64,000 bases of DNA from Siphonodentalium dalli (taxonomy: Eukaryota > Mollusca > Scaphopoda > Gadilida > Siphonodentaliidae): assembly GCA_032622095.1 (NCBI GenBank), contig CP136067.1, positions 177,540,556 through 177,604,555 of the forward strand, in the 5' to 3' direction. The position numbers and the translations under genes were made by a program. How positions within the stretch are numbered: position 1 is the first letter of the stretch; every line of letters begins with the position of its first letter. Positions 440-56,700 of the stretch are shown here, piece after piece. The notes under the pieces were generated by a model. That model saw only the letters and a program-made list of their open reading frames with translations. It was not told where the DNA came from and did not search any database.

Positions 440-550
440 TATGTGACCCGCCATATCAAATCCAGTCGTAAGTCGGGATTTTTTTTACCCTGTGCCAATG
501 CATTCTCTTATATATGCGAGTCGACCATAGGTCGCCTCGCATATATATAT

Positions 551-1629
551 AGGTTATCACCACCATGTGTGTTTCTGAGATCCGTATTCAAGTCGAGCTG
601 CCTTCTCTGGGCAGTCTATCGACGAGTCCGTAGGACGAGTCGATAGACAGCACAGAGAAGGCAGCGAGACTTGAATACGGATCTCGGAAACACACAGGGT
701 GATGATAACCAATTTATCTTACAATTCGTCCCATAAAAATGCAATAAAACTCAATTTAAAACAGGAACTATTTTATTACGCGCAACACACAACGTACACA
801 ATATTCTCAGCACGCGACGTTGTGATAAGTCAAATTATGAGAAATTCACGTCACTATTCAAATTCACTTTGGCTGGAATCCGATTCAATGAAGATCGAGG
901 CGACGATATTTTCGTCACTTTTAACAGGATAATTGTATTATTTTATGGTGCAATCTCCTTGGATAGTAATAGTGTTGGCGAGAGGCATTGCCGGAGATCA
1001 CTGTCCATTCAGAGTTTTGGTGAATTTTGAACTTTCCGACACTTCAACAATCGAGTTCTGACTCGCACTAAAATAACCCATTAAACTTCATTTAGAGGAA
1101 ATGCACTAAATCACGGACTTTTCGTAAGTATTGTGTTTTATATCCTTAACATAAGATAAAATTAATTTGAATTTCCATTCTGTATTTTATCGAATAAAAA
1201 ATGCGTTCAGTAGCTTTTGATCAAGACCGTACTGAATTACGGGGAATTCCCTACTTCGCTAAAATAGAAATTGTCAAAATAGTCCGTATTCGTGCGCGCT
1301 GTAAACAATGTGTAAATTTCGTGACTTTTTCGATGTCCAAACATTTTTGGGTGGTTATTTTGAGCTTTTTGGGCCCTGTCTCCATATTTTGTCAACTTTA
1401 TTGAACTAATTATTGATTATTTTACATTCGTAGCACACGAGTATATTATTTTACGACTTTTAGTTGGTTATTTAGACGTTTTGTTTTGAAAACAAGCCAG
1501 TTGTCGAAACGCACGTGCACCAGCTGTTGCCATCGAAGATATCCTTGTTGCCATCCAGGATACAAGATCGGAAACCGCCTAGGCGTTTTCGCGTGTATTT
1601 GATGAAATATAGCTATATTGTAAAATAAA
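551..1629. mobile_element. Unclassified insertion inside MITE copy A1
   Basis: About 1.08 kb sits between the two halves of an otherwise normal MITE hairpin. Its left end is a 159-bp hairpin (552-710) and its right end is A-rich (GTAAAATAAAA). No coding domain is recognisable; the open frames inside are short. A target duplication cannot be told apart from the surrounding TATATA. It may be a young non-autonomous element of unknown class. Confidence 0.55.
552..710. repeat. 159-bp near-perfect hairpin with a GTA triloop
   Basis: Arms of about 75 nt begin GGTTATCACC at 552 and end GATGATAACC at 710, with few mismatches. The tip has an outer stem (614-623 with 639-648), a tandem GA/GA internal loop, a four-pair GTCC/GGAC stem and a GTA loop (630-632). 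It resembles the stem II region of a hammerhead ribozyme in outline, but the catalytic core is not present. Confidence 0.85.
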
Positions 1630-1981
1630 AGAGAATGCATTGGCCTAACAATTTTTTATCATTTTTTTAAAATAAATGTTTCTCACAATTTTTAGGACAT
1701 AAAATAAAAACATCCATTACCCTGCAGGGAGCCCCACACATATATAGAAGCATATAGAAGAGTGTCGTCTGCTCATGTTTGTCTGGGGCTCTGTATGGGT
1801 GAAATTATAAAATTGTTAAAGAATACAAGAAAAAATTAATAAAATTGTAAAAAATTGTTAGGCCAATGCATTCTCTTATATATGCGAGGCGACCTATGGT
1901 CGACTCGCATATATAAGAGAATGCATTGGCACAGGGTAAAAAAATCCCGACTTACGACTGGATTTGATATGGCGGGTCACA

Positions 1982-5686: not shown

Positions 5687-6145
5687 TGTGACCCGTCATA
5701 TCAAATCCAGTCGTAAGTTGGGATTTTTTTTTACCCTGTGCCAATGCATTCTCTTATATATGCGAGTCGACCATAGGTCGCCTCGCATATTTAAGGGAAT
5801 GCATTGGCCTAACAATTTTTTATCATTTTTTTTAAATAAATGTTTCTTACAATTTTTAGGACATAAAATAAAAAACATCCATTACCCTGCAGGGAACCCC
5901 ATACATATATAGAAGCATATAGAAGAGTGTCGTCTGCTCATGTTTGTCTGGGGCTCTGTATGGGTGAAATTATAAAATTGTTAAAGAATACAAGAAAAAA
6001 TTATTAAAATTGTAAAAAATTGTTAGGCCAATGCATTCTCTTATATATGCGAGGCGACCTATGGTCGACTCGCATATATAAGAGGATGCATTGGCACAGG
6101 GGGAAAAATCCCGACTTACGACTGGATTTGATATGGCGGGTCACA
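5687..6145. mobile_element. TA-flanked double-hairpin MITE, complete copy A2
   Basis: A 459-bp element with long terminal inverted repeats starting TGTGACCCG, flanked by TA (5685-5686, 6146-6147). Just inside each end is a hairpin of about 67 nt built from CCAATGCATTCTC arms. The two hairpins are reverse complements of each other, with loops ATA and TAT. The centre carries a stretch bounded by CCCTGCAGGG and GGGGCTCTGTATGGG. There is no coding capacity. It interrupts a GTTAGTC-rich repeat next to the 2-kb palindrome. Confidence 0.93.
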
Positions 6146-8207: not shown

Positions 8208-8328
8208 TATATCTTTTTGGTTTCCGTTCATATTCTGGCACCATGTGGGTTTCTACGACGAAATGCCTGTAAAATATACCATGGAATCTGCGAGTATGTG
8301 AACGTATCATAACAAGTTCAGACATTAA

Positions 8329-8586
8329 CCCTTTTATGAGGTTTATGACGGGAGCTGCGTTGGTGCAGCATTAAAGATCATGTGTCAGTGCATTCTATTA
8401 CACATGCGAGTCTCTCGGAGGGAGCATCATATATACGATAATGCGCTGACTTACAAGGTCAATGTAAATATTGTTAGGCTAATGTATTATCTTATATATC
8501 TGAGGCTCCCTATGGGAGACTCACATATATAAGAGAATGCATTGGCTCAGGGTTTTCGCAACATTTCTGGAAGCTCCAGAAAGGGT
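8329..8586. mobile_element. TTAA-flanked CCCTTT MITE with diverged paired hairpins (P1)
   Basis: TTAA at 8325-8328 and 8587-8590 flanks a 258-bp element with ends CCCTTT and AAAGGG. TTAA duplication and CCCTTT-type ends suggest a piggyBac-like non-autonomous element; this class is inferred. Inside lie two diverged hairpins of the CCAATGCATTCTC family with loops around TCTCGGAGGGAG and TCCCTATGGGAG. Confidence 0.85.
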
Positions 8587-8652
8587 TAAATCCCGCCCAC
8601 AATAATTACCTGTAACTTTCTAGTGAATAAATTCGTCCTTTCATATTGTCAG

Positions 8653-12860: not shown

Positions 12861-13911
12861 GTAAAAAGGCAACTCATAGCAACTACGGTCTTTCTTTAAC
12901 TGCCAACGTTTTATTCTTAACTTGTACATATAGACTGTATATTATACAGTGCACATGTATTTACAATTTTATGAAATAACAGGACACCAACATGTGAAGG
13001 GAATCGAATTTCTAATGGAATTACACGAAATTGATAACAATAATACATAAATGCACAAACACAAACATGAATCCAAATAAATACAGCTAGATAATAAAGT
13101 ACTTTTATTATTCTAATGTACCTATTCTCCAACTCATTGAATATTAGTTGGATTACAATTGAAGTACCATGAATTATCTTCATTGCTATTATTAGTATTA
13201 TAGTTGTACCATATGAGGCAAACATACCACAACATATGATGGAGCATAATTATATATTCACAACATATATGTAAGCAAACATCATATCAGGGGAGCATTG
13301 AGTAAAAAGTCGGTTGATAACGGTGGGTAGGGGCAGGAAGAAGGCCATATGGTCATGCCTTACCCAACAATGTACATCATTTTGTTTTCATTAATCCAAT
13401 TTGTAAATAATTTACTGTGGTGTGCATTACTGAATAAAATATACACTAATATCGAAGGCTGCAAGCAGCATCCACCGCATTCCTTATGCTGTTGACAATA
13501 GAAGTGCGATAACTCGATTGTTTGGTGAATTGACGCCGCACATCGCCATTATTTTCAGACCTATCGCGTAGTTTTATTGTCTGGTTGTTCGCTCAGAATG
13601 CATAGGAATGCTCTTGCTGAATATATTACCAATGTTCTATGCATTCAGTTACAACACCGTAAGATTTATTTAAAAGTGCTTTGCTTTCTTCATATGGAAA
13701 CAAAATGACGAAAACCATACCCAAATAAAATGTAAAATTTAACAAAATAATTATAAATAATTACAAGCATTTGATGTGACGCGATTGTAAAATTAGAACA
13801 GCAGGTGCGAATTTGAGCTGCATGGCGGCATGACAAACGACCTGCATGGCGGCATGACAAACCAGTGACAAGGCGGCATGACAAACCAGTGTACTAACTC
13901 AATTTGTTTAA

Positions 13912-14294
13912 CCCTTTACCCAAACAGAACGGCCCTGTGCCAATGCATTCTCTTATATATGCGAGTCGACCATAGGTCGCCTCGCATATATAAGAGAATG
14001 CATTGGCTTAACACATTACAAATTATAAAATTGTTAAAGAATGTAAGAAAAAATGGTAAAAAGTGTTTTTTTTTAGGCCAATGCATTCTCTTATATATGC
14101 GAGGCGACCTATGGTCGACTCGCATATATAAGAGAATGCATTGGCACAGGGCATAACTGTAACTATCACAATGTGGTCAAGGAGCCGGTTCCAATGATAT
14201 CCATATTTGTATGGTTCTATTGAGACAGACCGAAGATATTTTAGGCTATTGAAGCTTTATTTGGCCGGTTTTGGCCGGTTTGTTGGGTAAAGGG
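13912..14294. mobile_element. TTAA-flanked CCCTTT MITE with intact paired hairpins (P2)
   Basis: TTAA at 13908-13911 and 14295-14298 flanks 383 bp with ends CCCTTTACCCAAACA and TGTTGGGTAAAGGG. The inner module starts CCCTGTGCCAATGC and ends GCATTGGCACAGGG. Its two hairpins match those of the TA-flanked A family almost base for base, though the termini and target site differ. The segment to the right of the module is unrelated to the A family. Confidence 0.9.
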
Positions 14295-14349
14295 TTAATA
14301 CAATTTTGTAACAGATAAATGTTTATCATTTACAGATCTAGCTTCTCAG

Positions 14350-28179: not shown

Positions 28180-28797
28180 AACTCCGCCTACCTAAAATGC
28201 CGATAACCATACTGCAAACTAACCCTCAAAATTTGTCTTCTAACTTCTCGGTTATAACTGTATAACATTAGTCAAAACAAGAGTTATTTCCCAATTACAT
28301 ATAACAGACAAATCAATTAGGCGGCAGTGATAAAACAATAATCACCGACGTGAATATCCGATTAGGAAATGACAACTATAAGCGTATACAGCTGATGGCT
28401 GATGGTCTGTACATGCATTAAAGGTTTTCCCATACGGACTTAGTGACCCCCGATATCCCCACCCATACATATATACATATACATACACGTACTTTATTAG
28501 CTTTTCTCACGAAACCATTTATATTTAGAAAAGAAACCGATAATTTTACAAACGAGGAAGTCTGAACGTCGAAAAAAAAACACCAAACAAATTATTCGTT
28601 TCTGAATAGACACAATCCCCATAGAATACCGTTTTTTATAGCAATCACCCACATGCTTCACTCCATTCCATCTTCTGTAACTTTCTCTTCCCCTCTTTGT
28701 ATCTATGTTCTGCCTAAAACATCTCTCCATCTCTCATATAGAAACCTAGAACAATTTACCATTTATTTTTGTTGTATACCTTGTCTTTCGGTATTAA

Positions 28798-29030
28798 CCC
28801 TTTCAGTGCCAAGTCCGATTTTTGTATCAACCCATATACCCTGTGCCAATGCATTCTCTTATATATGCGAGTCGACCATAGGTTGCCTCGCATATATAAG
28901 AGAATGCATTGGCCTAACAATTTTTCATCATTTGTTATTATTTTTTACAATTTTTTACAATTTTAATAATTTTTTCTTATATTCTTTAACAGACTTATTT
29001 AAAAAAAAAAAAAATAATAATAATAAGCTT
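28798..29030. mobile_element. 5' part of a TTAA-flanked CCCTTT MITE (P3)
   Basis: TTAA at 28794-28797 is followed by CCCTTTCAGTGCCAAG. The first intact hairpin of the paired-hairpin module (CCAATGCATTCTC arms) is at about 28847-28913, and an AT-rich centre follows. The second hairpin and right end are missing; sequence changes near 29000-29030. Confidence 0.75.
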
Positions 29031-31101: not shown

Positions 31102-31552
31102 TGTGACCCGCCATATCAAATCCAGTCGTAAGTCGGGATTTTTTTTACCCTGTGCCAATGCATTCTCTTATATATGCGAGTCGACCATAGGTCGCCTCGC
31201 ATATATAAGAGAATGCAACAATTTTTTATCATTTTTTTAAAATAAATGTTTCTTACAATTTTTAGGACATAAAATAAAAAACATCCATTACCCTGCAGGG
31301 AGCCCCACACATATATAGAAGCATATGGAAGAGTGTCGTCTGCTCATGTTTGTCTGGGGCTCTGTATGGGTGAAATTATAAAATTGTTAAAGAATACCAA
31401 TTTTTTTTATTAAAATTGTAAAAAATTGTTAGGCCAATGCATTCTCTTATATATGCGAGGCGACCTATGGTCGACTCGCATATATAAGAGAATGCATTGG
31501 CACAGGGTAAAAAAATCCCGACTTACGACTGGATTTGATATGGCTGGTCACA
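31102..31552. mobile_element. TA-flanked double-hairpin MITE, complete copy A3
   Basis: A 451-bp copy of the family at 5687-6145, with TGTGACCCGCC termini and TA on both sides (31100-31101, 31553-31554). The right arm of its first hairpin has lost a few bases before CAACAATTTTTT; the second hairpin is complete. Confidence 0.92.
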
Positions 31553-39726: not shown

Positions 39727-40145
39727 TGTGACCCGCCATATCAAATCCAGTCGTAAGTCGGGATTTTTTTTACCCTGTGCCAATGCATTATATTATATAT
39801 GCGAGTCGACCATAGGTCGCCTCGCATATATAAGAGAATGCATTGGCCTAACAATTTTAATAATATTTTCTTGTAATCTTTAACAATTTTATAATTTTAC
39901 CCACACAGAGCCCCAGACAAACATGAGCAGACGACACTCTTCTATATGCTTCTATATATGTGTGGGGCTCCCTGCAGGGTAATGGATGTTTTTTATTTTA
40001 TGTCCTAAAAATTGTAAGAAACATTTATTTTAAAAAAATGATAACAAATTGTTAGGCCTATGGTCGACTCGCATATATAAGAGAATGCATTGACACAGGG
40101 TAAAAAAATCCCGACTTACGACTGGATTTGATATGGCGGGCCACA
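39727..40145. mobile_element. TA-type double-hairpin MITE, copy A4 (reverse orientation)
   Basis: TGTGACCCGCCATATC at 39727 and its inverted match ending at 40145, with TA on the right but AA on the left (a probable mutation). Its centre is in the opposite orientation to A2 and A3. The arms of its second hairpin are partly deleted (GTTAGGCCTATGGTCGAC). Confidence 0.88.
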
Positions 40146-45429: not shown

Positions 45430-45433
45430 TTAA

Positions 45434-45650
45434 TCCTTTCATGAATGTAGCTGCGCTGGTGCAGCATTAATGGTCCTTCGCCAATGCATTCTCTTATATA
45501 TATATGTGAGTCCCAGAGGGAGCCTCACAAATATAAGAGAATGCGCTGGCTTAGAATGTCATGGTAAATATTGTTAGGCCAATGTATTCTCGTATATACA
45601 AGAGAACGTATCGGCACAGGGTTTTCGCAAATTTTTAGGAAGCTCCAGGA
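45434..45650. mobile_element. Truncated TTAA-type MITE with diverged paired hairpins (P4)
   Basis: TTAA at 45430-45433 is followed by TCCTTTCATGAATGTAGCTG. The first hairpin (45481-45550) has loop GTCCCAGAGGGAG; the second is collapsed (45580-45615). The right AAAGGG-TTAA end is missing after GGAAGCTCCAGGATT. Confidence 0.75.
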
Positions 45651-46906: not shown

Positions 46907-47888
46907 ACCAGGAATACCACTGAAAGAAGGACACAAAAATCCCTCTTATTTCCATACTGGTCCTTATCTTATTTCCATAGTGGTCCCTAAGCTGTTAAAC
47001 AGAGAGTAACGACCAGTGCTTATTGACATTACAAGTGCGTTGTTTTATAATCTTATATATTCAAGTTTATAAATTTTCCACCGAGTATTTGACATTGTTC
47101 TTTTGTTTTCCTGTTGCAAATGATTCATTGAGCCCATTATTAATTACATGGATTTATAAATGGTTGAATCATAAATATCGAGTAAATAGTATGTTATTGT
47201 CAAGTTCATACACTTTGTTATGTAAACAAAAGCCAAAAATGTTACAGAACCTGTCGTTTGTTTATATAACACAGTGTACGATCTTGACAATAACGTACTA
47301 TTTATGCGATATATACATGTATGATTGCTATGAGAACGAAATTGTCTATATTTTAATATTATTTCTTGTTTATGATCTTTAACAGGTGTCCCTCTTTCAG
47401 CAGCAATACCCACCGCGATGGCCATCGTGCCTTTAACCCTTTAATGCCTGGAGCTTCTCGAAATATTGCGAAAACCCTGTACCAATGCATTCTCTTATAT
47501 ATGTATATACGAGTCTCTATTATGGAGCCTCTTATATATAAGAGAATACATTTGCCTAACAATATTTACATTGACTGCATTCTCTTATATATGCCAGGCT
47601 ACATATGAGATAATCGCACATATAAGAGAATGTACTGGCACAGGATATTCAATGCTGCACCAGCGCAGCTCCCGTCATGAAAGGGTTAATTTGCTAATTG
47701 ATTTATGCCTCCATCATATATATTGTTATTGCCTGATAGCCCAACCCTCCCCAATAAAAGCCCAACCCTCCCCAATAAAGCACTACGATCACATACCACC
47801 TCTTGCCCACCGGTTTGCCTATAACTGGGATCGGCCCTTTGTGGCCGAATCCTATTGTAATGATTAATATTATGACTTATCGGGCAAG
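46907..47888. repeat. Left copy of a direct repeat of about 950-980 bp flanking the LINE
   Basis: It matches 52454-53403 from ACCAGGAATACCACTG to ATCGGGCAAG at very high identity. This copy is 982 bp against 950 bp; the difference is one short deletion in the MITE end and one extra CCCAACCCTCCCCAATAA unit. The repeat itself carries an AGGCACG-type MITE end and MITE P5. It stops exactly where the LINE poly-A (T on this strand) begins. Confidence 0.93.
47437..47685. mobile_element. TTAA-flanked CCCTTT MITE (P5)
   Basis: TTAA at 47433-47436 and 47686-47689. Ends are CCCTTTAATGCCTGGAGC and GCTCCCGTCATGAAAGGG. Two diverged hairpins of the paired module lie inside. Its left TTAA is also the right TTAA of an AGGCACG-type MITE end (CATCGTGCCT), so two TTAA-type elements share one target site. 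Confidence 0.9.
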
Positions 47889-50800
47889 AGTTTTTTTTTT
47901 TTTAAATGTTTATTGAAGAAACAATCACATTGAGGAATGTCAAATACAGAATGTTCAATAGCATTGATAAGTGTATACAGATATGGCATTCCTCGCGTTC
48001 ACACATATCTCTTTCTTACTGCACGCACTCGCCTGGCTCACAGCATTCGCACACCAGTGGTATAAAGTTATACAATACATAAATATATGCATATGCTTAG
48101 TATATATATAGTAAATGTATTATAAATATGTCGGATGTTTCGGATGGACTCAACTCTCAACATAGAGGCTATCGTGGAGATGGTGGTAGATATTATATGT
48201 TTTAACTGACTGCGTGATAATCGATAGGAGTCTCAAATATTAAAGTAAATTTTTATTAAGTCGCCTGTTTGTTTAAAGCTTTTTCTATAAGGAACCAGTT
48301 TTTCAAGAATTCTGAAAGTTTCGATTGACATCGTGCTGTATATTTTTCGCAATCGTATCTATATGCCAACTCTTTGAGGAAAACATTAACAGACAAAGTG
48401 ATTGGTTTAAATTTAGACCGATATATATATTGTTTAATTAGGAGCCAGAGCAAGTTTGTAGTATAGTTTTTACTAATGGGTGGTGTGCCAAGAATCATCG
48501 TCATATTTGTGGGATAAAGATTTATATCATTATTTTTACCCCAATTACAGATATCTCTAACAAATGTCTGCACATGACAACAATCCCAAAAAAATGTGGT
48601 TGATATCTTCCTTTTCACTTTTACACCTATCACATTTGCCATCTTGTCTTATATTAGAAATGTGTAGAAAGTTATTAGTTGATAATATTCTAGAATTTAT
48701 TCGGAATTGTAGCCATTGTAGCTTGGTGTCAGGCGTCGTGAGAAAGGGTAGTTTATCATATGTAAATAATGTACTTCCCATATCAGGAAACTGTGATTGC
48801 CATTTTGTGCGCGCTTTAGTCATAATTTGAGAATCGTTCAAAGTTTTGTAAAAATCTTGTCCTCCCCGCGAATTTTTAAGCAAAGTGATGAAGTTAGTGG
48901 GTAGAATGGGGTAAGAAACTCGAGTTATCTGTTGGCCAAGCTTTTTTGCTGTTGATTTTATTTGCTGCTGTATAGTGTTTACAGTGATGAAGTCTGTGCG
49001 TATATTAAATGTCTTATGTATGGCTTCTTGTGAAAGAAAAGAACCTTTACTATCTAGCATATCATTTATATACATAATCCCTTTTTCGCGCCAAGAAGTG
49101 AAGTTTATTACCTTTCCATATTGTTTTATATTTGAATTATTCCACAGCGTACATGTGGATATATTGCAATTGTTCACATTTTGTTGTAAAAATTTGACAA
49201 ATGATAACAAAACGTCATGCCAGAATGGATTTGTGAATTTCTTTGCCTGTTTCTCTAAATAACCATGCTCATATGTAAGGAACATGGGGTCTTCGCATAA
49301 TGGAATATCTGTGAGGGGCATCCACTTGGCGCTCTTTGTTATGAGGCGTCTCACCCAAGTTATTTTCATTGACAGCATAAAATTATTGACATTAACCATT
49401 TTCAAGCCACCGTTTTTGTAATCTTGGCATACAACTTTGCGTTTCACTCGATCACGTTTTGAATTCCATAGATAATTATAGAGCATAGTGTCCAATTTTT
49501 TCATAAATGTTTTATCGGGATTTGGAAGTGACACGAAAAGGTGTGTTAATTTTGGGAGTATAAGTGATTTTATTACAGTTATTCGACCAATAGGTGTCAG
49601 TAATCGGTGTTTCCATGTCTCAATCAGTCGTTTCACATCAGCAAATTTTGTATCGTAGTTGATTTTCATTTTGTCAAGATGTGTATCAAAATGAATACCT
49701 AGAAGATCAAATGAGCTATCAAATCTGATACCAAGATCTGAGCATATACCATCTCTACGCCCAGTATAACTACCTATCCACGATGCCTGACACTTGCTAG
49801 GGTTAATTTTTAAACCGGAAAGATTTGCGAACAGTGTTAATACATTGTATACTTCCCTTAGGCTTTCTTCTCTGCCGTCTAAAATGAGAGTTGTGTCGTC
49901 TGCATACTGTGTGATTTTGTATTCAAAATTGCCGAGGTTTATACCTTTGATGCGTTTATTAGATTTAATCATGATAGCTAAGATTTCTGCGCATATCAGA
50001 AAAATATAAGGCGAAATTGGGTCACCCTGCCGACAGCCACGGTTTAGTTGGAAACTCTGAGATATATGTCCATTTATCAGAATATATGAGTTGATATTTG
50101 TGTAGAAAGTATAAATCCATTTTTTTATGTCATCACCAAAGTTAAAAAGGTCAAGGCATTTATTTATAAATTTCCATGATACTGAGTCAAATGCCTTTTC
50201 AAAATCTAGCAGGAGCAGAAGACCAGGTTTATCAGCTAATTTTGTCTTATGGATAATATCATAAATTAATCTAGTGTTGTCTCCAATATACCGATTTTTA
50301 AAGAAACCAGTTTGATCATCGCTGATTATATCGGGTAGAACATTTTTCATTCGTTCAGCTATACAAGAGGAAGCTAGTTTATATGTTATATTTAACAGAG
50401 TTATCGGACGCCAGTTCTTTAAAAGATGTCTCTCTTTATCTTTTTTCGGAAGAAGGGTAATAAGTCCTTGTTTTTGGGTTATGGATAATTCACCAGTATC
50501 AAATGCTTCACGAAGGGACTCACAAAGAATTAGACCTAAGTTTTGCCAAAAAAATTTCCAGAACTCATACGGAAATCCATCCAGACCGCTGCTCTTATCA
50601 TTTTGTGATCTTTTCAATGCGTTTGTTAGTTCGTTTAGAGTTATTGGCCCTTCTATGCTATTTGCAGTATCGTTTGTTAATACTGGATAAGTTTCTTCAC
50701 TGAGGATAGTGCTAATATCAAAATCGTTTAATTTTTTAGATGCATATAAAGTACTGTAAAATGTTCTTGCTTCGTTCATTATGTCCGACTGATTATCAAT

Positions 50801-52453
50801 GTTTTTACCAGTGGAATCGGTGAGCATCGATAGAGTTTTAGAAATGAAATTGCGCTTTTCGAGATTCAAGAAATATTTTGTGGGTTTTTCTCCGTTTTCA
50901 ATCCACCTGGCTCTAGATCTTATCATTGCCCCCCTCGTGTCTTCTTTTCTAATTTCATAGAGCTCCGAGTCTATTTTTTGTAATTTTTCCAATAATTCAT
51001 CTCTTTCTGTTAAACATTGGTCCATGTTATCGACCGTTGTTTCCAATTTTACTTTAGTTTTGTTTAATTCGTCCTCTTTCTTTTTGCGTTCTCTTTTTCG
51101 TTTTGCTGCGAAATTTATTGTTTCACCTCTTATATCCAATAAGAGGGTGTCTAAAAATAGGCGTTTACTAATTTTACAAGTAACATTACTTGTATTTTCT
51201 TCACGTATATTCAGTTTATAATCGTATCTTAGTTTATTTCTTTCTATAATAGAATGTACTAATACTGCATATTCATTGTCACGAAGTAAGGAGGTGTTAA
51301 ATTTCCAATAACCTCGACCTCTCACAATTGTATTTAGTTTCAATGTGAGTGATATTATGGAATGATCAGAGCGGTATCCTGGTAATATATCGGTCCCTGT
51401 GCCAACTAAGCTTAGAAGATCTTCAGATATCATAAAGTAATCTAGTCTAGCCATTTTTATTGGAGATTTTTTCTCTCCATGTATATCGTTTTTTGTCTTT
51501 GTTGTTAACTCTCCAAGCATCCACCAGTTCGAGTCTGTCGACAAGGTCGCCCACCGATTCTTTAGCCCGGGGATTGTTAATATGTTTATAATTTAAAGTA
51601 TCAGCGGACTGATTTTGTACCATATTCCAATCACCACATATTATTATTTGGGTGTTACCCATGTTAATAATCTTAGTTTTCAGCTGTTTGTAAAATTCAG
51701 GGTTATCTTCGTTTGGGCCATATATGTTAACTAAAGTCATTCTCAATTTGTCTACGGTTACATCGATTATTATAAAGTTTCCAGATTCATCTTTGATAGA
51801 ATTGTGTATTTGAAAGTCGAGGTTCTGCCTAATAAAAAAAATGATTGCGTGGTGAAGGGTGCCAATATTGTTTTGAAACCCCATTCTGAAGAAATGTATC
51901 TTTCCATATCTTTGGTGAAATGTGTGTCTTGTAGACAGTATATTGAGGCATTTTGTGCTCGTAAATATCGGAACACGTCGCGTCGTTTCTCTGACTGATT
52001 GAGACCTCGGCAATTTGAAGACAGTATCTTTATAGACATAATCGACAACTAGCATGCAGACTACCGAAACATCGACATAGAAGTACATAGGAGATCATGA
52101 TTATATATTTAGAAAATACAGCACAATAATATATTACGCCACTGGAATAAGAATCAACCATACAGATCATGCATACTGACATACAAACATACTGAATATA
52201 TAACAAAAACAAAACAAAATTAAGTGAAATCCGATACGAAACCTCCATGGTTGAGGTTATGAGCGACCGCCCTGGGTCCGGTTCAACATTGTGTATGTGT
52301 TATTACAGTCATCTGATCATATTTCTTTGGAGTCATGAAACTACATACGAGAAATCGAAGAAAGATTTTTTTTACTTTTTTAAAAGAATTTTTTTGAAAT
52401 TTTGAAAATATCTTCAAATGTAATTTACTCATGTATTATTTAACTTAAGGACC
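47889..52453 (-). mobile_element. 4.6-kb L1/Tx1-like non-LTR retrotransposon
   Basis: Minus strand. The 3' end is a poly-A tract of about 12 nt (47890-47903 on this strand as T), abutting the left direct repeat. The 5' end meets the right direct repeat at 52453. It encodes one endonuclease-reverse transcriptase frame with three frameshifts (see the CDS entry). No ORF1 is visible in the 400 bp upstream, so the copy is 5' truncated or of a type with a single frame. Confidence 0.88.
48256..52048 (-). pseudogene. LINE ORF2: APE endonuclease and reverse transcriptase, frameshifted
   Basis: The reading starts near 52048 with an APE endonuclease N-terminus (SSNCRGLNQ, then LQDTHF where QETH is usual). 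It moves frame at an A run (51833-51841), passes GDWN, moves again at a T6 run (51467-51472), then runs open for over 950 codons. In that frame are SDH (end of the endonuclease), RT motifs LLDFEKAFDSV, GCRQGDPISPYIF and the active-site YADD, then a C-terminal CDRC-type zinc-knuckle-like part. A third shift at A7 (48588-48594) leads to the last 100 residues, ending at 48256. All catalytic boxes survive. The long open frame and only homopolymer breaks suggest a young copy. Confidence 0.88.
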
Positions 52454-53403
52454 ACCAGGAATACCACTGAAAGAAGGACACAAAAATCCCTCCTATTTCC
52501 ATACTGGTCCTTATCTTATTTCCATAGTGGTCCCTAAGCTGTTAAACAGAGAGTAACGACCAGTGCTTATTGACATTACAAGTGCGTTGTTTTATAATCT
52601 TATATATTCAAGTTTATAAATTTTCCACCGAGTATTTGACATTGTTCTTTTGTTTTCCTGTTGCAAATGATTCATTGAGCCCATTATTAATTACATGGAT
52701 TTATAAATGGTTGAATCATAAATATCGAGTAAATAGTATGTTATTGTCAAGTTCATACACTTTGTTATGTAAACAAAAGCCAAAAATGTTACAGAACCTG
52801 TCGTTTGTTTATATAACACAGTGTACGATCTTGACAATAACGTACTATTTATGCGATATATACATGTATGATTGCTATGAGAACGAAATTGTCTATATTT
52901 TAATATTATTTCTTGTTTATGAGTTTTAACAGGTGTCCCTCTTTCAGCAGCAATACCCACCGCGATGGCCATCGTGCCTTTAACCCTTTAATGCCTGGAG
53001 CTTCTCGAAATATTGCGAAAACCCTGTACCAATGCATTCTCTTATATATGTATATACGAGTCTCTATTATGGAGCCTCTTATATATAAGAGAATAAATTT
53101 GCCTAACAATATTTACATTGACTGCATTCTCTTATATATGCCAGGCTACATATGAGATAATCGCATATATAAGAGAATGTACTGGCACAGGATATTCAAT
53201 GCTGCACCAGTCATGAAAGGGTTAATTTGCTAATTGATTTATGCCTCCATCATATATATTGTTATTGCCTGATAGCCCAACCCTCCCCAATAAAGCACTA
53301 CGATCACATACCACCTCTTGCCCACCGGTTTGCCTATAACTGGGATCGGCCCTTTGTGGCCGAATCCTATTGTAATGATTAATATTATGACTTATCGGGC
53401 AAG
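52454..53403. repeat. Right copy of the direct repeat flanking the LINE
   Basis: See 46907-47888. Sequence left of 52454 (LINE) and right of 53403 is not shared with the flanks of the left copy. The arrangement is therefore flank, repeat, LINE, repeat, flank, as for a target-site duplication. Confidence 0.93.
52984..53221. mobile_element. TTAA-flanked CCCTTT MITE (P6), duplicate of P5
   Basis: TTAA at 52980-52983 and 53222-53225. It is the same insertion as P5, copied with the direct repeat, with an 11-bp deletion in the right end (CACCAGTCATG). Confidence 0.9.
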
Positions 53404-53700: not shown

Positions 53701-56700
53701 ATGAAAAGTTTATTAATGAAATCTGGGAGCGTTCACCCAAATCCTGGACCAAACGCACATACACTATCGATTATGTGCCTCAATGTACAAAGCCTATTGC
53801 CAAAGATTGACACCATTATTGCCGAATGTCAAAATTATGATATACTTGCATTTACTGAGACCTGGCTATCAGATTCAACCTCGGACGAGGAGTTGACTAT
53901 ACCGGGATTCAACAGCCCTGAACGACTTAATCGTCCTACTCTCGGTGGAGGTATTGCGATTTATGTCCGCAACTCACTTCATTTCAAAAGGCGAAAAGAT
54001 ATAAAAATACTCGGCCTTGAACATATGTGGTTAGAAATCTTCACGCATACGAACAGTTTCCTTTTTGGAACCTTCTATAGACCTCCGAATTCACCTGTAG
54101 AACTCTGGGATAAAATATACACTTCACTTGATTGAGCGATGGATACAATAGAATCCAGAAATCACACAATTGTTACCGGAACTTTCAATTGTAACCAACT
54201 GTGCACTGAACCAAAACAAACAAGATATATATGTGGGAAGTTTGGTATGAAACAGCTTATAGAACAACCTACCTACTTCACTGAAAATTCCCGATCACTC
54301 TTAGACCTGTTTTTTTCAAATAAACCGGATTTTGTACAGTCGTGTGAGATTTTAGATCCTTTATTTGCAGAATTGGTTCGATATCACTGCCCAATCGTAC
54401 TTACTTTAAATATTTGTAAAGGGACATCGAACCGATTCATCAAAAGAATATGGAAATACGAGGCAAATTTCAGTGCAATGAATGAAGAATTGCAAACGTG
54501 GGGCTCCGAGAATCCGTTGAAACATGTGAATTATACAGAACTTGCGACGGTGATAACTAACAAAATAAATGAAGTCGCGATAAAACACATTCCCAACAAA
54601 TTTGTTACAATTAGAACAGATGAACCCGAATGGATGTCAGGCCACATTCGTCTCCTTATGAGGCAACGCAAACGATTATATGTCAAAGCAAAAAAGAATA
54701 CGACATTAAATGCATGGGCTAAATATAAAACCAAGCGAAATGAAGTAATATCATCTATCAGAACTGCCAAGCGACTGGAAATGGAAAAAAAACAAAAACT
54801 CCTCGGCAGTTCTTTTACTGATTCCTCGGTGTGGTGGAAAACTCTTAATAGACTCATGGCCCCAGACCACAAACCTATTCCGTCACTTTGCGAGGACAAC
54901 AACGTATACACAGATAACAATTCCAAATCGGAAATATTAAATAATTATTTTTGCTCTACATCGTCCCTACCCGAATCTGACAAAAAAGAACCACCGCTAT
55001 TATCTAGATCTAAAAATTGTACATTGAAACTTATTAAGATTACACACAAAGATATATTGGAATCCCTGACAAGTGTTAAATTAGCAAAGGCCAGTGGCGA
55101 TGACGGTATCAGCCCAAATATTCTAAAGAATTGCGCAACGGCCCTAGCAAGTCCTATGTGCTATATATTTAACGAATTGTTAAAACATTCCTATTTCCCT
55201 GATGAGTGGAAGAGAGCAAACGTTTGTCCCATCTTTAAAAAAGGTGATCCAAGTATGCCATCGAATTATCGTCCGATTTCATTGCTAAGTTGCCTCTCAA
55301 AAATATTTGAGAAATGTATCTTTCGACATTTATCAAAATACTTATACGAAAATAAGCTCCTAACAGATTTACAATCGGGTTTCACTCCAAATGACAGTAT
55401 TGTATTCCAACTAACAGACATATATCATTATCTTATTTCATCTTTAGACGAAGGAAAAGAAATAAGTTGTCTTTTCTGTGACATCAGCCAAGCTTTTGAT
55501 AAAGTTTGGCATAAGGGATTATTGTCCAAATTAAGTAACCTAGGTGTGTGTGAAAACACATACGACATTTTGAAAAATCGATAACAAAGAGTCATTTTGG
55601 AAACTATCCAGTCGTCTTGGAAATCTGTAGAATCTGGTGTCCCCCAAGGGTCGATACTGGGTCCCCTACTATTCTTGATATACATCAATGATATAGCAGA
55701 CGATATAACAAGTAATATCCGACTTTTTGCAGACGATACCTCCCTTTTTCTAGCAGTAGAAGATCCCATAACGGCTGCTGACGTCCTAAACAAAGATATA
55801 TCGAAAATACACGATTGGTCTAACAAATGGCTTGTTAAAGGCACGTGCGGCCTTAATTGTCAAAAATATTCATAGTTGTTCCAAACACCGTAACCAGAAA
55901 AACATTAAAACGCATACAGTTCCGTTCATATATACCATGACCATCGCGTAAACAGCATGTTATCATAAAGACCTACTATATTTTACCTAAGCAAGAGCCT
56001 GATTGTGTTACAGAAGACAGCACAATGCTGCTGGCTAATCACACACAAATGGCATAAACGCTCTTTATTCGTTCCATATCAGGAATTCACCCACACAGAA
56101 CGCTCTTTATGTTTACCATCATAATATAAACAAACACCAGAAAAGTAACTTTTTATGCCTTTGTTTACATAACAATGGTCAAAAATATGACAATAACATA
56201 CTGTTTATGCGATATTTCTTATTTGTATACGGACAAAGTCTGTCTACATTTTGTTCTTTCTGTTTGTGGCGGATTTTGACGGGTGGAAATATTTTCACAG
56301 GATACCCACCGCCAAGGCCAACCGTACCTTTAAATTTAACCCATCCAAAACTGAATCCCTCTTAGTTAGCAGGAAAGAAATTAAACCTAGCCACCCCCAT
56401 CTCAAAATGGCAAATCAGCCAATATGCGAAGTAGCGACACATAAACACCTAGGTCTAACCTTTAGTTCCGATGGTAAATGGAAATACCATATCGCAGATA
56501 TTGAAAAACGAGCTTATAGTAGGCTGTCCCTGCTGAGGAGGCATAAATTTAACCTTGACAGGAGGTCACTAGAAAGAATATATTTATCATTTATTCGTCC
56601 TGTCCTGGAGTATGCCTCCTCAGTTTGGGACAACTGCAGCAACGAAGAAGCTAATGAATTAGAAGAATTCCAATACGAAGCCGCAAGAATCGTAACTGGC

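Follow-up and report, generated by a model that had tools for sequence, protein, structure and literature searches.

Why does the same pair of hairpins lie inside MITEs that differ both in their ends and in their target sites? The question arises from a 64,000-nucleotide stretch of Siphonodentalium dalli DNA, called the window here (C7:177540556-177604555 in a nine-contig genome of 2.23 Gb). A first-pass annotation had described two inverted hairpins bounded by CCCTGTG and CACAGGG, each with long arms, one mismatch and a three-base loop, and had proposed that this module moves as a unit or has a function of its own, with nested insertion as the plain alternative. The paired hairpins are indeed present, near-perfect and 69 nt each, the described shape is seen in both hairpins of the element at 13908-14298, and all elements named in the annotation were found where it had placed them (Table 1). 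The description mostly holds for the hairpins and their places, but the flanks, the number of hairpins and the grouping into families had to be corrected.

Table 1. Hairpin-bearing elements of the window and the parts of the element at 13908-14298 (positions are those of the window)
Feature	Position	Strand	Remark
Family (a) element, GTGACCC ends	443-1980	+	first hairpin interrupted by another inverted-repeat insertion
Family (a) element	5688-6144	+	cargo between hairpins
Family (c) element, TTAA ends	8325-8589	+	older hairpin lineage
Family (b) MITE, whole	13908-14298	+	391 bp; TTAA and CCCTTTACCCAA ends
Core, CCCTGTG-hairpin-spacer-hairpin-CACAGGG	13933-14151	+	inverted arms 104 nt, 89% complementary
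Hairpin 1	13939-14007	+	T.C mismatch; inverted-repeat analysis and folding
Hairpin 2, inverted relative to hairpin 1	14077-14145	+	G.A on + strand; inverted-repeat analysis and folding
Right outer arm of family (b), CATAACTGTAACTATC...GGGTTAA	14152-14298	+	copies found genome-wide
Family (d), left part	28794-28913	+	TTAACCCTTTCAGTGCC arm, CCCTGTG and one hairpin
Family (a) element	31103-31551	+	
Family (a) element	39728-40144	+	interior inverted relative to 5688-6144
Family (c) element	45430-45621	+	left end to end of second hairpin region
Family (c) element, TTAA ends	47433-47689	-	
Family (c) element, TTAA ends	52980-53225	-	near copy of 47433-47689

The element at 13908-14298 ends in a perfect terminal inverted repeat of 16 nt, TTAA counted in. 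Both of its hairpins have 33-nt arms that are 97% complementary, with a single mismatch and a loop of 3 nt. Folded as single-stranded DNA, they give -35.4 and -37.8 kcal/mol, with z values of -15.6 and -16.0, respectively. In the window the boundary word CCCTGTGCC is found 12 times, where 0.16 occurrences are expected, and CCAATGCATTCTC with at most one mismatch 24 times, where 0.12 are expected. At the gathering score the window has no match to a structured RNA family of Rfam. The window also contains reading frames resembling those of non-LTR retrotransposons, with RVT_1, at 48557-51544 (-) and 53701-55584 (+); an endonuclease-family domain precedes the latter set.

In which elements does the core occur? 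It belongs to a very large complex of short, non-coding MITEs. A half-hairpin pattern of 44 nt with at most two mismatches has 156,294 matches genome-wide, while its reversed control has none; such searches give lower bounds, and copies may hide in masked stretches. Four main end types were found around the core. Family (a) has GTGACCC ends at AWWT-like sites and reads GTGACCCGCCATATCAAATCCAGTCGTAAGTCGGGATTTTTTTTA directly before CCCTGTG on both sides, while families (b), (c) and (d) have TTAA/CCCTTT ends. In family (b) the left end reads TTAACCCTTTACCCAACAGAASGG before CCCTGTG, and on the right CACAGGG is followed by CATAACTGTAACTATC. Family (c) has arms of its own and is older, its scored matches being 83-88% identical to the window copy. 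In family (d), TTAACCCTTTCAGTGCCARGTCCGATTTTTGTATCAACCCATATA and CCCTGTG are followed by one hairpin and a different interior. Twelve of the (c) matches and eight of the (d) matches were taken. One hairpin, i.e. half a core, was found in each of 12 (d) copies examined, and the window element at 28798, previously read as carrying two hairpins, has a single one. The core was present in all 20 of the (b)-arm loci fetched (of 40 scored among 264 candidates), with shortened hairpins in some, and the right arm at 14152-14282 was 100% identical in 27 of the 40 scored, including the window copy (the same 264 first-look candidates). A sample from chromosome 1 (20 of 100 listed places among the 156,294 matches, at C1 0.96-4.1 Mb; non-random like the other samples of loci, since it left out an 11-kb tandem array and the places listed first) comprised 5 loci of type (a), 11 of type (b) and 4 of type (d). 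A right flank is common to two of these (d) loci; in the sample, L001 and L003 share theirs. In the automatic classification of ends, inner hairpin sides and (c) left ends fall under "other", and the outward-facing classes alone are usable.

Several assignments in the window were revised. The elements with TGTGACCC ends had been called TA-flanked. TA stands on both sides in 5 of 10 family (a) elements with both ends, but the family is not simply TA-flanked: the flanks are AWWT except for one ATGT, and the rest lack TA on at least one side. The 4-bp flanks match in 7 of the 10, where re-paired flanks would give 4.4, and a target duplication in family (a) is accordingly no more than possible. 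The elements at 442 and 39727 do carry the module, but with the interrupted hairpin and the inverted interior given in Table 1. The sequence inserted in the former has inverted ends GGTTATCACC.../...GGTGATGATAACC, and inverted cargo as in the latter is also found in L013 and L085. The elements at 8329, 45434, 47437 and 52984 are TTAA elements as described, but they belong to the diverged family (c), which has a different inner stem.

Do the families share one core by descent? The similarity scores of the between-hairpin spacers of (a) and (b), and of (a) and (d), were reached by none of 500 shuffles. The same holds for (b) and (d), at a score of 41 that is near the best shuffle, 39. These homologous spacers indicate that (a), (b) and (d) have one ancestral core. 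One (c) spacer was compared with those of (a) and (b), and 99 and 225 of 500 shuffles reached the scores, i.e. there is no significant similarity; (c) would be an older relative through its hairpins.

The hairpins themselves were compared in a set of 134 from L001-L100 and the window, collected before L101-L148, of which 116 are of the (a)/(b)/(d) class and 18 of the (c) class. Comparison of the majority hairpin of one class with that of the other gives six differences in 69 positions (5, 30, 31, 39, 40 and 65). These form the pairs 5-65, 30-40 and 31-39, all compensated and still paired. The T.C mismatch is kept in 113 of the 116 and in 15 of the 18 hairpins, respectively. In 3,712 cells of individual (a)/(b)/(d) copies, 69 changes are one-sided and none is compensated, which means that copies decay freely, uncorrected, after insertion. 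In 576 cells of (c) copies, 98 changes are one-sided, 10 are compensated and 2 are two-sided but unpaired. Six of these ten compensated changes are at pair 5-65. This pair is mixed within (c), so the difference of (c) is partly one between its own two hairpins. Pairing was kept in the source elements, by selection for mobility or by fold-back copying, and the two are indistinguishable because there is one lineage split only. Templated correction of hairpins within copies was also considered and rejected: besides the lack of compensated changes in (a)/(b)/(d), the mismatch is corrected in 1 of 116 hairpins.

Does the hairpin pair then have a function of its own, such as binding of a transposase or host factor, cruciform formation or small-RNA production, so that selection would retain it in every successful MITE? 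That the majority differences amount to exactly three compensated pairs, and that the mismatch is retained in both classes, speaks for it. However, a single lineage split is concerned, and one fold-back copying event could alter pairs 30-40 and 31-39 together; the preponderance of one-sided changes in (c), with most of the compensated ones at the mixed pair, and the lack of an Rfam match in the window also count against it. We regard such a function as possible and on balance unlikely. A more specific suggestion is that the hairpin with its T.C mismatch is a helper independent of the termini, at which stalled replication or repair would lead to template switching and so to new ends. This is rather improbable in our judgement. 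If it were true, one non-autonomous lineage would ride successive unrelated transposases, of the AWWT type and the TTAA type. Given the compensated evolution of the hairpins, whether the fold has a role in mobility can be tested directly.

Could the core move alone? All 20 chromosome-1 loci fall in end types (a), (b) or (d). The pattern CCCTGTGCC...GCGAG with C or T before CCCTGTG has 1,045 exact matches, where about half of all would be expected to have C or T from random flanks; the ratio to the 156,294 matches is rough, since that count belongs to a different, longer pattern with up to two mismatches. Twenty of these odd-flank loci were taken among 100 listed of the 1,045: in 18 a known context has been altered by mutation, and the other two, L084 and L086, are truncated (a) elements that lack their end on that side. 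Exact searches for empty sites, defined by outer arms that meet with no more than 30 intervening bases, gave no match for family (a) and three for family (b), all three with core remnants; diverged empty sites would be missed by such searches. At C4:98343564-98343618 there is a (b) copy in which the whole core is shrunk to CCCTGTGCCAACGCATTGGCACAGGG, as if the hairpins had been deleted to their bases. No common duplication at the core edges was seen in the loci examined. The proposal that the module moves as a unit is therefore not borne out by the context samples, and the sites missing just the module, by which it was to be checked, did not appear in clean form for (a) or (b) in the exact searches. 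We reject the core as an independent mobile element on these two grounds: neither unrelated flanks in the samples nor clean empty sites in the exact searches were found.

A related account is that the core is a transposable unit with CCCTGTG ends which entered (a), (b), (c) and (d) in separate insertions. It would explain why the CCCTGTG boundary is sharp beside several outer sequences, and the spacers are homologous across (a), (b) and (d) as it would have them. On the other side, a free core is absent from the 20 chromosome-1 and the 20 odd-flank loci, exact matches preceded by C or T are few even as a rough ratio, neither a common edge duplication nor, in exact searches, a clean empty site was seen, and the (d) copies examined have half a core only. 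Separate insertion is thus very improbable.

Are there elements that join parts of different families? The (b) left end is not followed by C at 98 matches, all of them listed. In 51 of the 98, by hand count, a T-run like GGGATTTTTTTTA of family (a) stands between the (b) end and the core. These are not 51 separate events, as at least 15 are alike and four fetched of these share one flank; the 15 or more are probably copies of one duplicated locus. Twenty of the 98 were fetched, and TTAA is found at both ends in 16, so the (b)-end chimeras moved as TTAA elements. L119 and L120 among these 16 share flanks, and the other four, L101-L104, have one common flank and lack the right TTAA. In L117 the (b) end is joined to AAGTCGGGATTTTTTTA of (a), and in L118 to the (d) arm, followed by the (b) interior and right arm. 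A second search, for (a) subterminal sequence with (b) interior, gave 22 matches genome-wide and none for the reversed control. Twenty of them were fetched. Eleven begin with TTAACCCTTTACCCAACAG joined to TCGGAAGTCGGG at CAG, a word found in both parents (L137, L138 and L147 among them have one common flank), and L144 has a different junction, joined at CAACA. A complete (a) left end with (b) sequence on the right is present in L131, L133 and L142; the (b) right end is complete at TTAA in the latter two, while L131 has the (b) left end reversed. L132 and L148 are damaged (a) elements, and L136 and L143 are truncated. In L129 a (b) end stands ahead of a complete (a) left end, and the CAGTTATG there could come from the right arm of (b) itself. 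An (a) element with both ends inside a TTAA element was not found among the fetched loci, L129 having the left end only. In the chimeras read, the sequence switches from one parent to the other either at short matches immediately beside the core or inside it.

For family (d), a relative without hairpins was found. The (d) arm is not followed by C at 216 matches; of the 100 listed, the majority have a point mutation at the core edge. Twelve of these 100 read CATATATCCTTGATC, i.e. the (d) arm continuing into TCCTTGATC. Eight of the twelve were fetched; the core is absent in all eight, and a long palindrome was seen by eye in six. This element, P, is a hairpin-free palindromic TTAA MITE with the same arm as the left end of (d), in which the P arm is followed directly by CCCTGTG and half a core. 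The junction of P reads CCCATATATCC and offers ATAT, the commonest flank of (a). Insertion of (a) at this ATAT, followed by loss of the 45-nt (a) arm, would give the (d) junction, CATAT joined to ACCCTGTG. In their subterminal sequences (a) and P resemble each other weakly, with 8 of 300 shuffles reaching the score.

What scenario do these observations give? We observe the chimeras, the relative P, the homologous spacers of (a), (b) and (d), and no clean empty site in exact searches. Probably the module was passed down as the core of a single MITE lineage rather than being a mobile unit, and the (a)-type core was joined to pre-existing TTAA MITE ends, after which the chimeras multiplied. TTAA (piggyBac-like) MITEs would have supplied the ends and an (a)-type element the core-bearing DNA; each product that multiplied with its new ends would then have become a family. 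The likeliest route is that (a) inserted into a TTAA MITE and the (a) arm was lost, while recombination or template switching inside the common hairpin core would have accompanied nested insertion; the order of these events and the DNA-repair pathway are what we infer. Nested insertion, the annotation's own alternative, comes close to the pattern of the chimeras, but it seems to require recombination and end trimming in addition: nested insertion with trimming suits P/(d) and the graded (b) forms, and recombination within the core suits the forms with mixed ends. The exact start of the core at CCCTGTG in (b) and (d) is unexpected under random trimming and counts against the joining account, an objection that the T-run remnants soften for (b) only. 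It may be that some of the chimeras formed late, by recombination between finished (a) and (b) elements, and are not ancestral to (b).

One may go further and let recombination or gene conversion of finished families at the hairpin alone make all chimeras, with no nested insertion ever. The combination of (a) left ends with (b)-type right sides in L131, L133 and L142, the mixture of (b) and (d) in L118, and exchange points in the core or at adjacent short matches fit this well. Yet it leaves unexplained how (b) and (d) first acquired the core, the P junction has just the ATAT that most often flanks (a), and the graded T-run remnants in (b) resemble deletions. We hold recombination alone to be unlikely. 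Descent of all families from a single element, with point mutations accounting for the different ends, is hardly credible. The weak likeness of (a) and P is in its favour, but the arms of (a) and (b) have no similarity (288 of 300 shuffles are as good) while their hairpins are near identical, P exists without a core, and the junctions are abrupt.

Which transposases would have moved these families under the preferred reading, a joined and inherited core? The target duplication that characterizes piggyBac, TTAA, is found in (b), (c) and (d), whose ends start with CCCTTT. In (b), the left TTAACCCTTT and the right GGGTTAA are both present in 18 of 20 copies; by eye, TTAA was seen in 6 of 8 copies of (d) and in most of 12 of (c), several of which are decayed. 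Kolobok was rejected: its termini are 5'-RR..YY-3', in contrast to those of piggyBac (PMC9587614), and the termini here begin with CCC. Judged by the ends, the transposase of the TTAA families would be of piggyBac type. The genome has many piggyBac transposase genes (PF13843) with open frames (128 matches; 116 candidates scored of 649). Many of the matches have a 562-aa frame with one internal TGA, as in a large family of broken relatives. In 20 transposase loci taken of the 128 listed, the TTAACCCTTT end or TTAACCCTTTATCTGC occurs in four, and the hairpin core is absent from all 20 (the domain and 1.4 kb on each side). L076 has one near-match, to the arm word alone. No (b), (c) or (d) end was recognised in the 20 loci, in which the TIR scan left most ends undefined. 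With the same limit on the ends, a hairpin-bearing piggyBac transposase as autonomous parent was rejected, there being none in the 20 loci.

Sequences related to these elements also occur in arrays. At C2:52629733-52631666 and C1:21726521-21726729 there are tandem arrays with 27- to 32-bp units of the outer hairpin arm (CCCTGTGCCAATGCATT...AAA), apparently satellites derived from the MITE end. At two places the core matches are evenly spaced, about 11.2 kb apart at C1:820017-920866 and about 7.9 kb apart at C1:94237018-94292256; these seem to be long tandem arrays that contain the MITE. At L083:258-701, a (c)-like element contains a tandem array of whole hairpin units (104 bp x 4.3, 98% matches).

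How does the case compare with known systems? Families (b), (c) and (d) are like piggyBac-type MITEs in having TTAA at both ends, 5'-CCC termini and short TIRs; the difference is that the core is common to a non-TTAA family. Chimeric and nested MITEs are already known. Bacterial REPINs consist of two inverted hairpins and are non-autonomous and of high copy number, and REPIN-like elements have a Y1/RAYT-type transposase as partner; here, in contrast, the genome is eukaryotic, the outer ends are of TIR type, and there is no sign of independent movement. Titles and abstract openings in one open-licence library gave no account of this case. Pack-TIRs, as outlined in Nat Commun 2021 (PMC8277862), are TIR elements that gain sequence at microhomologies, by gap filling or FoSTeST, and then multiply; in that outline the interior is filled with other duplicated DNA, whereas in the present families the core stays constant and it is the ends that are exchanged. 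Highly conserved domains of SINEs, such as the V domain in MER6, are summarized as one piece found in elements with different machinery (PMC6887750), while the hairpin pair here is common to MITEs and known from one genome. The pearl-type MITEs of bivalves are sketched as modular, with internal satellite-like repeats and palindromes at the repeat junctions (PMC5139131), and by that description the modularity, palindromes and repeat arrays here, including the (c)-like element with 4.3 hairpin units, resemble those of pearl elements in layout. Subterminal palindromes of piggyBac, 19 bp long, are reported in brief to be bound by the CRD of the transposase (PMC11707139); palindromes lie near transposon ends in both systems, but those here measure 69 nt and are found with AWWT-type ends as well. 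Because so much sequence is common to such families, repeat libraries built de novo may merge or divide them wrongly. What the present genome brings together is one core with two target-site classes and surviving hybrids, and thus the change of transposase by a non-autonomous element becomes traceable junction by junction.
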